Position numbers and translations under genes: made by a program. The notes under the pieces are model-generated. The model did not search any database, was not told the DNA's origin, and was given only the letters and a program-made list of their open reading frames with translations. Positions 5,588-9,689 of a DNA stretch of 20,271 nt are shown here, piece after piece; position 1 is the stretch's first letter; every line of letters starts with the position of its first letter. The stretch covers positions 1 through 20,271 of IMG/VR virus record IMGVR_UViG_3300012964_000064. One strand, given 5' to 3'. Source of the stretch: a virus.

Positions 5588-6082
5588 ATGGCGAAGCGAT
5601 CGTGTGCGATCACGGAAAGGCTGGCGGCCCCGAGGTTCGGGTTCCGGATCGAGTGCCGTGATAAGAACGGGAAGTTGAAGTGGGTCGAGATCGTCAAGAA
5701 CCTCGTTACTACGGAGGGCGGGAACGATCTTCTCAATAAGTATTTCAAGGGAAGCGCGTACACCGCTGCGTGGTACATGATGTTGGCAGGCGTCGGCACC
5801 AAGGCTGTCGGTGACACGATGGCCTCGCATGCCGCGTGGTCGGAAGTGAACCCGTACACCGGCAACCGTCCGGCGATCACGTTCGGCACGACAGCCTCGA
5901 AGAGCAACACCGCCACTGCGGTCAGCTTCTCCATCACTTCGAGCGCGACGGTGGCTGGCGCTGCGATCGTCAGTTCCAACACGGGCACGACCGGCGTGCT
6001 GTACAGCGTCAGCGATTTCGCCGCGAGCCGCGCCGTCGTCTCGGGCGACACGCTCAACGTCACCCCGACCGTGACCTGCTGA
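5588..6082 (+). CDS. Putative virion structural protein (decoration or tail-associated)
   Basis: A 164-residue protein with a clear ribosome binding site (AAAGGA at 5577-5582). The N-terminal third reads as strands ending in VEIVKNLVTTEGGNDLLNKYFKGS, followed by WYMMLAGVGT, a segment containing DTMASHAAWSEVNPYTG, and a Ser/Thr/Ala-rich beta-type C-terminus. The sequence of 'N-(L)VTTEG-(x)-N-LL', 'WYxxLxG' and 'W-x-E-x-x-x-Y' is one I associate with small phage surface proteins encoded near tail fibre genes. There is no membrane segment or enzymatic motif. It sits directly before the large repeat-rich appendage gene, so it may be part of the same surface structure. The frame is open to 5441 but that part overlaps the previous gene, so ATG 5588 is chosen. 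Confidence 0.7.
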   Translation: MAKRSCAITERLAAPRFGFRIECRDKNGKLKWVEIVKNLVTTEGGNDLLNKYFKGSAYTAAWYMMLAGVGTKAVGDTMASHAAWSEVNPYTGNRPAITFGTTASKSNTATAVSFSITSSATVAGAAIVSSNTGTTGVLYSVSDFAASRAVVSGDTLNVTPTVTC

Positions 6083-6091
6083 AAGATCTAG

Positions 6092-8581
6092 ATGGCAACT
6101 CCAGTCGTCAGAGCATCCGGCACAGCCGTTTTCGGGACGACGGGGTCGTTGACCCCGACGAACCCGACGCATGCGACTGACGACATCTTGCTGTACTGGG
6201 TGGCATCGAGTGCGAACGCCAGCGTCACGCCGACGCACTCGACGCCCACCGGCTTTACTCTGCTCGGATCGGCAGTCATCACTACCGGTACTATCCGCTC
6301 ACGGATCTCCTGTTACTGGCGGCGGGCCACTTCTGGATCTGAGGCAAATCAATCGGTGACGCTGACGCCGACCGGCTCCACGGCTTGTCATCATGCGGCG
6401 GCTGTGCAGTCGGTCCAGAATTGTCCGACGAGCGGGAACCCGTACGAGAATCTTCAGACGAACCAAGCGGCGGGCGCGAGCAGCATCGCTTTGAGTCGCG
6501 TTGTGTCCGGTAGTGATCGTCTTTCGTTTCTGGCGGCTCACCACGCCGATAACGTCGCCACGGGTGTTTCGGAAGACTCGGCAGACGCCTATACGAGCGA
6601 TTACGCCACCGACAATGCTACTGGGATCGATGGTTTCACGGCGGTGTTTGAGTTCGGGCCAAAGGCTACTGTTAACGATTCGGTGACGATCTCCTACGCC
6701 TCCGGTGGAACGTCGGTCGGGATCGCTGGTCTTGCTTTCGCGTTGCTACCTGGGCCGGCGGTCTACAACGAGAGTTTCACGGAAGCGGTTACGGCTGCTG
6801 ACTCGCTGGCGAACGCGGTCACTTTCGAGAACTCGATCACGGAGGCTTTGGGCGCGTCGCAGGATGTGGCGATCCATACTGGGTTTCCGGTCACTGCCAG
6901 TCACCCTTACGGCACGACGACTCCCGTCACAACGGCTGTTTTCAACGTCAGCGCGGGGAAGCGGATCTGGGTTGTCGTTAGCGGGCGCGGTTTTGGTGGA
7001 TACGCGAATATCGCCGTGTCTGGATCGTCCCTTGGTGCCTTCAGTCTTCAGGGCGGCGTGGATAGCGCGACCTTTGGGATCTCTTCGGCGGTCTTCTACA
7101 AGGACGCGCCGAGCGGCGTGACTTCGGAGACGGTCACGGCGGGGCGATCTGGATTCACGCACTCCGTCCAGTGCGCAGTCTACGTGTTTGACAACGACAG
7201 CGGAGCGGCTGGTGCGGCCGGTTCCGATTCGCGAGATGGAACGAGCGCCCAAGCCAAGTGCACCGTCAACGCGCAGTCGATGGGTTCGATGATCATTGGT
7301 GGGATCGGGTTCGGCGCAGCCGGTCCTGTCAGTCCGATTACCGGGAATACCGAAGATTACGAGTTGAATGATTCGAGTGATGGATCGGATATGTGTACCG
7401 ACCGCACTACGAATCCGACGACTGCTGCTGGGAACGTGGACATTGGTATCACCGGCTCTACAAGTTACTGGACTGCATATGCGATCGAGATTCTTGGCGC
7501 GGGTGGCGGTGGAGTCGCTGACTCGCTCTTTGATGAACTGATCCCCGCAGGTGGGACTGTTTACAACGAGACAGTAACAGAGTCGGCTTCGGCAGCGGAT
7601 TCGCTGGCAGATGTCATGACGATGGTGAACGCGATCAACGAAGCAGCTTCGGCGGCTGATGCGCTCGCAGCCGGGTTGACGATGGATGCTGTTGTCAGTG
7701 AGGCGGCCTCGGCATCCGACGCGCTCGGGGTGACGGCAACCTACGAAAATCAGATCAGTGAAGGAGTGACCGCAGCCGATGCGTTGGTGGATGCGGCGAT
7801 CTTCGCCAACGCCATCTCGGAAGGTGCGAGCGCGGCTGACTCCCTTTTTGACGAGTTGATTCATCCTGGCGGTGCGATCTACAATGAAACGATCACCGAA
7901 AGCGTGAGTGCGGCGGATTCGGCGGCTGTTGTGATGACGATGAACGAGGGGCTTTCCGAGGCGACTAGTGCTGCCGACTCCCTCGCCGCCGGACTGACGA
8001 TCAACAAAACGCTCACGGAGCCGGTGACGGCAGCCGATGCGCTCACGGTTTCATTGACGATTCCAGTGGCGATCACAGAAGCCGTGTCCGCAGCCGACGC
8101 GCTTGCAACGTCGTTGGTGATGGTGGAGGTGATCACTGAGTCGGTGACGGCGGCCGACTCCATGAGCATCCCTTCGGATGAGGCGCTTTGGTTTTTCCTA
8201 TCGGAGCGATCTATGAAAAGCGTTCAAGCGCCGACCGGCAGCCCACCCACCTCTCCCGACGACGGGTTTGATCTTCTTGGCGTGCACGCCTTCACGGTCA
8301 CGTCGGAGTGCGAGCCGGGACAGGCGTTCACCGGTCCAGTAGCGGGACAGTATGATCTTTATCTGTATGATGAGAACGTGGGGGAGTGGAGCCTCGTACC
8401 CGGATTGGAGCAGGTGATCCCTGCGGTGGCGGCAGGGCTCAATCGATTTACGATGATCTTTGATGTGCAGAACGCGCGGGGTCGCATCGCGTTCGTCACG
8501 AACGGGATTGGCGTGACGGGTGGGAACATCACGACGTACTACTCACCGACGCTCCGGTGGTTCTCACCGAGAAAGGCTTAG
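6092..8581 (+). CDS. Repeat-rich tail appendage or adhesin-like protein
   Basis: An 829-residue Ser/Thr/Ala-rich, Lys-poor protein, probably the outward-facing fibre or host-binding protein. Order of parts: a beta-type domain at about 1-220 (contains ILLYWVASS and a CYWRRA strand), two 20-residue repeat units (224-262), a second beta-type domain at about 263-470, a Gly hinge, ten further repeat units (about 475-691) of the pattern (I/V)(T/S)E-x-(V/A)-(S/T)-AAD-(S/A)-L-x(9), and a beta-type C-terminal domain at about 700-829 with YDLYLYDENVGEW. Similar TES-x-SAADS repeats occur in phage tail proteins I recall from environmental phages. There is no signal peptide. GAAAG at 6081-6085 is the ribosome binding site. 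It lies between portal and scaffold genes, an unusual place for a fibre. Exact role in receptor binding is inferred. Confidence 0.75.
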   Translation: MATPVVRASGTAVFGTTGSLTPTNPTHATDDILLYWVASSANASVTPTHSTPTGFTLLGSAVITTGTIRSRISCYWRRATSGSEANQSVTLTPTGSTACHHAAAVQSVQNCPTSGNPYENLQTNQAAGASSIALSRVVSGSDRLSFLAAHHADNVATGVSEDSADAYTSDYATDNATGIDGFTAVFEFGPKATVNDSVTISYASGGTSVGIAGLAFALLPGPAVYNESFTEAVTAADSLANAVTFENSITEALGASQDVAIHTGFPVTASHPYGTTTPVTTAVFNVSAGKRIWVVVSGRGFGGYANIAVSGSSLGAFSLQGGVDSATFGISSAVFYKDAPSGVTSETVTAGRSGFTHSVQCAVYVFDNDSGAAGAAGSDSRDGTSAQAKCTVNAQSMGSMIIGGIGFGAAGPVSPITGNTEDYELNDSSDGSDMCTDRTTNPTTAAGNVDIGITGSTSYWTAYAIEILGAGGGGVADSLFDELIPAGGTVYNETVTESASAADSLADVMTMVNAINEAASAADALAAGLTMDAVVSEAASASDALGVTATYENQISEGVTAADALVDAAIFANAISEGASAADSLFDELIHPGGAIYNETITESVSAADSAAVVMTMNEGLSEATSAADSLAAGLTINKTLTEPVTAADALTVSLTIPVAITEAVSAADALATSLVMVEVITESVTAADSMSIPSDEALWFFLSERSMKSVQAPTGSPPTSPDDGFDLLGVHAFTVTSECEPGQAFTGPVAGQYDLYLYDENVGEWSLVPGLEQVIPAVAAGLNRFTMIFDVQNARGRIAFVTNGIGVTGGNITTYYSPTLRWFSPRKA
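6761..6880 (+). repeat. First pair of 20-residue (60-bp) repeat units in the appendage gene
   Basis: Two consecutive units, FTEAVTAADSLANAVTFENS and ITEALGASQDVAIHTG..., are offset by exactly 60 bases. The AAD aspartate codon of the first is at 6800 and the matching position of the second, at 6860, is Gln. The second unit is degenerate. They are preceded by VYNE, the same motif that begins the later repeat blocks. Confidence 0.75.
7520..8164 (+). repeat. Ten-unit 60-bp repeat array organised as a two-fold 318-bp super-repeat
   Basis: The conserved aspartate codon of the AAD motif falls at 7520, 7598, 7658, 7718, 7778, 7838, 7916, 7976, 8036, 8096 and 8156. Steps are 78, then four of 60, then 78, then four of 60. 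Each 78-bp step encodes an extra SLFDELI-(P/H)-x-GG-x-(V/I)-YNE linker. The array is thus two copies of a 106-residue super-unit. The protein pattern is tightly kept while codons differ between units, so the copies are old or under selection at protein level. Confidence 0.9.
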
Positions 8582-8953: not shown

Positions 8954-9689
8954 AACGGTTCTCGGGGCGAAGGGTGACACCGGAGCTACCGGGGCGGCAG
9001 GGGCAGCGGGCGCAGGCGCGGCAGGCGCAGGAGCGGCGAAGGGTGACACCGGAGCCGCAGGCGCAGCAGGAGCCGCAGGCGCAGCAGGAGCCGGGCCGGC
9101 AGCGGGCGCTGCGGGTACGGCAGGAACCGGAGCAGCGGCGGGCGCCGCAGCCCCGGGGGCGGCCACGACGGTTCCGGGTGACCAGCAGAGCGGAGCGGCG
9201 AAAGCCATCGAGCCCGCGCCTGCGGACATCCAGATCAAGATTCCGGAAGGGGTCGCTGTCGATCAGGGGCTTCTGAAGACCTTCACGGAGTTTGCCAAGG
9301 AGCACAAGATCGCTCCCGAAGCGGCTCAGAAGTTCGCGGATTCCTACATGGGCTCCGCAAAGAAGGCGACCGAAGAGGCCACGCTTCGACAGGCGGAACA
9401 GATCGTTTCTTGGGCGGAAGAGGCTCGGGCTGACAAGGAGATCGGTGGGGCCAATTGGGACAAGAACGTTGCGGCGGCCAACAAGGCGATGCAGCGTTTT
9501 GGCTCGAAGGATCTCGTCGCTCTCATGAACCAGTCCGGTCTCGGAAACCACAAGGAGATGATCCGCTTCTTTTCCAAGATCGGAAAGTCGATCTCCGAGG
9601 ATACCATTCCCGGGGGCGCCGCCGGTCAAGGAGGAGAGGGTGGATTTGATCTGGACGTGATGTATCCTTCCATGGCGAAAAAGACGTAA
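8943..9689 (+). CDS. Capsid scaffolding protein with collagen-like N-terminus
   Basis: A 248-residue protein immediately upstream of the major capsid gene. Residues 8-74 are almost only Gly, Ala, Thr, Lys and Asp in Gly-X-Y steps (GAKGDTGATGAAGAAG at 8-23; GDTGAAGAAGAAGAAGAG at 34-51), a collagen-like or low-complexity tract. Residues about 95-248 carry the body: acidic, helical, with ANWDKNVAAANKAMQRFG, then LMNQSGLGNHKEMIRFFSKIGKSISED, a signature of podophage scaffold or capsid-assembly proteins. The C-terminus ends FDLDVMYPSMAKK, probably the capsid-binding tail. GGGAGA at 8932-8937 precedes the ATG, which is the only start in frame before residue 150, so the Gly-rich tract is truly part of the protein. 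It would guide shell assembly and leave before or during packaging. Confidence 0.82.
   Translation: MANETVLGAKGDTGATGAAGAAGAGAAGAGAAKGDTGAAGAAGAAGAAGAGPAAGAAGTAGTGAAAGAAAPGAATTVPGDQQSGAAKAIEPAPADIQIKIPEGVAVDQGLLKTFTEFAKEHKIAPEAAQKFADSYMGSAKKATEEATLRQAEQIVSWAEEARADKEIGGANWDKNVAAANKAMQRFGSKDLVALMNQSGLGNHKEMIRFFSKIGKSISEDTIPGGAAGQGGEGGFDLDVMYPSMAKKT
8964..9164 (+). repeat. GC-rich Gly-X-Y coding repeat
   Basis: This tract encodes residues 8-74 of the scaffold. It includes a perfect 18-bp tandem duplication (gccgcaggcgcagcagga at 9054-9071 and 9072-9089). The block gaagggtgacaccggagc occurs twice, near 8969 and 9037. Copies are nearly identical at DNA level, so the tract may change length by slippage or recombination. 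Confidence 0.85.

Follow-up and report, generated by a model that had tools for sequence, protein, structure and literature searches.

The window analysed here (the whole virus record, 20,271 bases) encodes an 829-aa protein that contains arrays of a 20-residue repeat. On balance, and with some reservation, we favor reading it as a modular appendage of the virion with a solenoid as its stalk, probably a tail or side fibre, in a phage of the podovirus type. Fibres built from repeats are ordinary in phages; what is new is that a largely unnamed 20-residue repeat is widespread, has a motif of its own at array starts, is linked to a gp80-like gene, and is exchangeable. If this reading is right, a large unnamed repeat family of environmental phages gains a testable role as a length-adjustable stalk that is paired with a gp80-like fibre gene and has interchangeable heads as well as interchangeable repeat types. 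Annotators working on uncultured phages could then use the 20-residue repeat to locate candidate modules for host recognition, which may escape ordinary similarity searches because the repeat is probably hidden by low-complexity filters.

Genomic setting and protein layout

A podovirus-type virion module was recognized in the window by Pfam and PHROG profile matches (Table 1), and the window may be a fragment. The repeat gene starts nine bases past the stop codon of the phrog_8123 homologue. No match of note was found for the 829-aa protein in Pfam, PHROG (0 families at E values up to 1), NCBIfam, or PDB sequences, and searching the whole protein against cultured phages and IMG/VR returned nothing usable. 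IMG/VR was also searched for relatives of D2 and of the C-terminal domain, and none were found. The idea that D1 and D2 are copies of one domain was dropped after their comparison gave no similarity. Further downstream, the phrog_458 protease/scaffold-like gene has at its start a low-complexity Gly/Ala stretch that resembles collagen (GDTGATGAAGAAGAG..., window 8966-9170), within which lies a 69-base direct repeat.

Table 1 Features of the repeat gene and of the virion module in the window
Feature	Position	Strand	Basis or remark
phrog_8123 homologue, directly upstream of repeat gene	5588..6082	+	PHROG E 2.5e-24
Putative appendage protein, 829 aa, all repeats within	6092..8581	+	ORF
Globular domain D1, ~residues 1-222	6092..6757	+	Four viral relatives, 59-81% identity
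Array 0, two units, one good with a VYNE opening and one degenerate	6764..6883	+
Globular domain D2	6884..7510	+	Without detected similarity to D1
Junction 1, degenerate half-unit VADSLFDELI and PAGGTV	7511..7561	+
Array 1, five 20-residue units, YNE opening the first	7562..7861	+
Junction 2, six added residues HPGGAI ahead of YNE	7862..7879	+	AF2 confidence low around it
Array 2, five 20-residue units, YNE opening the first	7880..8179	+
C-terminal domain	8180..8578	+	Without detectable relatives; low AF2 confidence
Portal	in window		PF12236 match
Major capsid protein	in window		PF20911 match
Protease-like protein	in window		phrog_458 match
Tail proteins	in window		phrog_394 and phrog_376 matches
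Bbp19	in window		Weak match

Period, motif, and codon divergence in the window

When the protein was compared with itself, the best match was obtained at a lag of 106 residues (51% identity, against a maximum of 24% in 2000 shuffles), with further matches at lags of 20 (38%), 86 (32%), and 126 (35%). The repeat is genuine and lies far beyond chance. An earlier note on this DNA had placed it at 7520-8164, with a spacing of 78, 60, 60, 60, and 60 bases twice over. Between SAAD positions this spacing is exact, provided that a degenerate half-unit near 7511 (reading GGGVADSLFDEL) is taken as the start of the first 78, and GG-x-[VI]YNE is present in each 78-bp step (PAGGTVYNE and HPGGAIYNE). Repeats do fill that interval, but two further units at 6764-6883, again opened by VYNE, had been missed.

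The same note held that TES-x-SAAD is retained while codons diverge. The codon divergence was confirmed: where residues are identical, 59% of codon pairs differ versus 61% expected at saturation, and the duplications are therefore old. The literal motif, on the other hand, is rare, and T/S-E-x2-S/T-A-x-D is held instead. Identity between window units ranges from 15 to 80%, and a near-invariant Glu at position 7 and Asp at position 13 both occur in 11/11 scored units. With steps of 20 inside each array, the window belongs to the family of 20-residue E-x5-D arrays; the E-D spacing of 6 is not claimed as an independent result because it is partly imposed by the ungapped profile that was used for scoring. 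In composition, the arrays are Ala/Ser/Thr rich, acidic (31 acidic residues versus 1 basic), and nearly free of Lys and Arg.

The repeat family among viral relatives

A degenerate DNA pattern requiring two units 60 nt apart matched 76 stretches in IMG/VR, and a 20-column profile (unit consensus F-x-A-x-V-[ST]-E-x-A-[ST]-A-x-D) was scanned over 45 non-redundant viral proteins, the window protein included. A total of 759 units were found in these proteins and only 2 in shuffled proteins, and 622/716 steps were exactly 20. Given that the pattern scan had demanded one 20-residue step, the period was rechecked in a differently chosen set, for which the gp80-like protein was the sole query. Among the best 80 of at least 559 loci, this gave 31 non-redundant new proteins, with 246/258 steps being multiples of 20 (211 exactly 20). 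A 20-residue period that is held while codons saturate, as had been proposed, was thus recovered in both sets.

The family phrog_12240 (PHROGs v4, annotated as of unknown function) was matched by 7/35 array-bearing relatives (best E 6.6e-13) but not by the window protein. No matches were returned by tblastn with the repeat as query, probably as a result of low-complexity filtering, so this blank is no sign of absence. A literature search on the motif letters gave one chance hit, and another on solenoid tail fibres gave no description of this repeat.

The 106-residue arrangement and the array-start junction

The two 318-bp blocks that contain arrays 1 and 2 are 54% identical in amino acids and 57% in nucleotides. 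It had been proposed that a single segmental duplication gave rise to them and that the 106-residue block is a functional unit, retained for the sake of its length. The self-match optimum at lag 106 favors this, as does the identity of 65-80% between blocks over the junction and units 1-2. In-register likeness is limited to the junction, unit 1 (80%), and unit 2 (65%), however; units 3-5 are 35, 40, and 30% identical in register, with no excess over out-of-register identity. When the number of units was compared among relatives, it varied from 2 to 47, with junction steps of 23-28. The nearest relative (L078, 81% identity in D1) has 8-9 units, a 25-residue step, and two units, and it and other relatives differ in the units between junctions, with junction steps of 25-28. 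A conserved duplicated 106-residue element was therefore not borne out, and we consider its maintenance as a functional unit highly improbable. The 106-residue super-repeat is a local arrangement of the 20-residue unit and not a general one.

Units at array starts or after irregular steps differ from internal units. Tyr occupies position 1 in 48/114 of the former versus 47/658 of the latter, a YN opening is present in 13/114 versus 0/658, and Gly lies within six residues ahead of the unit in 78/114 versus 156/658. Similar junctions of other lengths were observed in close relatives (LIPGGGGPQTYNETLAES, 28; LIPGAGGTTYNDTLSES, 25; QLISGGATYNEPISE, 25). Based on these statistics and the varying lengths, GG-x-[VI]YNE is an array-start junction that stands outside any conserved 106-residue element. 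Where a non-20 step separates two intact units (18-26 residues), the length change falls in the D-to-E stretch; the site was read from these steps, as steps like 41 or 46 contain an unscored unit. The element had earlier been described as a hinge, for which array-start junction is the better description. At the second junction (window residues 584-595) AF2 confidence (pLDDT) drops below 50, as would suit a flexible joint although it is no proof of one; the junctions may permit hinge motion.

Predicted fold of the arrays

Conservation and hydrophobicity are higher at odd unit positions, and even positions are Ser/Thr (p=0.003), an alternation that fits beta-strands with one buried face. Window residues 467-829 were modelled with AF2 using 46 sequences, and the model has each unit in two strands, with a mean pLDDT of 54 and values mostly of 50-70 in the arrays. 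A model of the relative L046 had a strict 20-residue strand pattern, with pLDDT of ~63-75 over most of the array (mean 62). The rod envisaged in the earlier note is supported by both monomer models insofar as they predict a beta-structured one.

The structures matched by these models using VIA-align are beta-solenoids: 7muq_AM (Z 15.4, rmsd 2.9, 198 aligned) and the antifreeze protein 3p4g (Z 11.0) for the window model, and curli CsgA 8c50 (Z 28.4, rmsd 8.3) and 3p4g (Z 21.9, rmsd 3.6, 276 aligned) for the L046 model. A Foldseek search of the window model against the PDB gave no significant match. CsgA is the subunit of a bacterial extracellular amyloid, and the L046 model shares with it a repeat of ~20 residues in which two strands make one solenoid coil. 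It differs in its conserved residues and is without sequence match to the arrays, and the Curlin profile (PF07012) matched neither the window protein nor any of 35 relatives. The 3p4g structure, the ice-binding region RIV of MpAFP and a Ca2+-dependent beta-helix, has a coil of similar size to those in the L046 and window models. Unlike it, the 20-residue consensus is without the RTX-type Gly/Asn-rich Ca2+ motif; the RTX Gly-rich nonapeptide was absent from the 759-unit profile, in which the consensus turn is T/S-A-x-D.

For perfect repeats, AF2 yields unrealistic solenoids with stacked uncompensated acidic residues, whereas for several natural families with diverged repeats, including Curlin, all methods gave consistent predictions (PMC11795689). 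The window units are diverged, yet their acidic ladder (invariant Glu and Asp with almost no basic residue) is the warning sign for AF2 unless a cation is bound. Because of this bias and the ladder, we keep the beta-solenoid at moderate confidence.

Two other structures were weighed for the arrays. One is an intertwined homotrimeric fibre (a triple beta-spiral or a triple-stranded beta-helix, as in T4 gp5) in place of a monomeric solenoid, for which the unbroken alternation between conserved and variable positions would be suitable, as it would for any extended beta fibre. Many phage fibres are trimeric, and the AF2 confidence for the monomer is only moderate. We regard this structure as unlikely, given that two strands and a short turn per 20-residue unit match the coil size of a single-chain solenoid and that the array of L046 was modelled as a monomer with the pLDDT values given above. 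The other is a flexible, largely disordered acidic linker of low complexity, unfolded and periodic merely through tandem duplication. The Ala/Ser/Thr-rich composition, the blank tblastn result (probably a low-complexity filter effect), and the documented AF2 bias (PMC11795689) would all agree with it, but disorder would have no need for Glu, Asp, and the 20-residue spacing to stay fixed while codons saturate, for alternating hydrophobic positions, or for length change to be confined to the D-to-E stretch. Such a linker is less probable still than the trimer.

Association with a gp80-like gene

The gene upstream of the repeat gene matched PF23140 (Podophage GP4 fibre I protein gp80) with an E value of 6.4e-5 and 23.7 bits, below the gathering cut-off of 27. 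In the GP4 tail fibre system (Zheng et al. 2023, as cited in PMC13243795), fibre I gp80 corresponds to PF23140. The window has in common with that system an upstream gene of phrog_8123 that is weakly similar to PF23140, as well as podovirus-type virion genes; it differs in that the repeat protein is without Pfam, PHROG, or PDB sequence match and the upstream Pfam score falls below the cut-off.

Using tblastn, the gp80-like gene was detected in 37 array loci, and in 37/37 it lies upstream on the same strand, in the same order as in the window; of the array loci without it, only L056 and L072 offer more than 2 kb of sequence upstream. Of the gp80-like loci with enough downstream DNA, 50/71 carried an array; this is not a general frequency, given that array-bearing loci had served to seed the gp80 profile and that, of at least 559 loci, only the best 80 were used. 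The gp80-like protein of the window was found in only 44/50,697 cultured phage records. Other neighbors of array genes in relatives match families for tail fibres, fibre assembly, the baseplate wedge, and structural components of the virion. The repeat gene probably works together with the upstream gp80-like gene. The only solved sequence relative of the latter is a 171-aa chain named 'Structural protein' (PDB 26la_U, 44nx; profile E 1.3e-19).

Exchange of domains and repeat types

The globular domain ahead of the arrays varies among relatives, and D1 can carry other repeats instead. In L078, D1 leads directly into the arrays with no D2, and a gp80-like gene lies upstream. In L079 and L080 (~60% identity in D1), D1 is followed by a 14-residue repeat, and in L081 by another repeat of ~20 residues. 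The repeats after D1 (L079:2931-4469, L080:112-1527, and L081:4386-6374) read ARLAGTATLEKTST (period 14) and GTAVVAFAPSGALEQDVAL (period ~20). When the AGTATLE repeat of L079 (14 residues) was searched for, it turned up in the L079 contig alone, so that no control set was obtained. Arrays are joined to Laminin_G_3 lectin-type domains in a few relatives, and other partners are Gly-rich domains, short MFG or GWG leaders, and domains without Pfam match. No similarity was found when D1 and D2 were compared with other array-associated domains. By eye, the L078 contig looks like a different tail type, with a possible tail-tube protein at 7076-8260, and the pair of gp80-like and repeat genes may therefore move between phage types.

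Proposed role

In the favored reading, the D1, D2, and C-terminal globular domains would be kept apart by arrays of 20-residue units, each unit probably forming one coil of a two-strand beta-solenoid. The strands would lie at unit positions 14-19 and 2-9, with the invariant Asp held in the turn at 10-13. The arrays would form a stiff stalk, longer or shorter according to how many units they contain, and GG-x-[VI]YNE would start each array and link it to the preceding part. The fibre-type context provided by gene neighbors is consistent with a stalk on the virion, and the Laminin_G_3 domains of a few relatives, together with genomic context, suggest that the globular domains may bind receptors. 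A more speculative extension, which we put forward only tentatively, is that the arrays are an undescribed type of modular stalk: an acidic two-strand solenoid in which the rod is locked by Ca2+ or a different cation bound to unpaired Glu/Asp ladders, in which reach is tuned by adding 20-residue coils, and of which the whole stalk or the head is swapped beside a constant gp80-like gene.

Other repeats in array-bearing loci

In the repeat proteins of L012 and L041, long arrays are broken at intervals by recurring Gly/Trp-rich inserts (IGTSGWGSGAWGGDPWGGLND), another kind of super-repeat. In many relatives (L005, L046, and similar loci), the last unit is followed by a Trp repeat at the end of the repeat gene, with WxxIxDxQTxxW occurring every ~10-11 residues.
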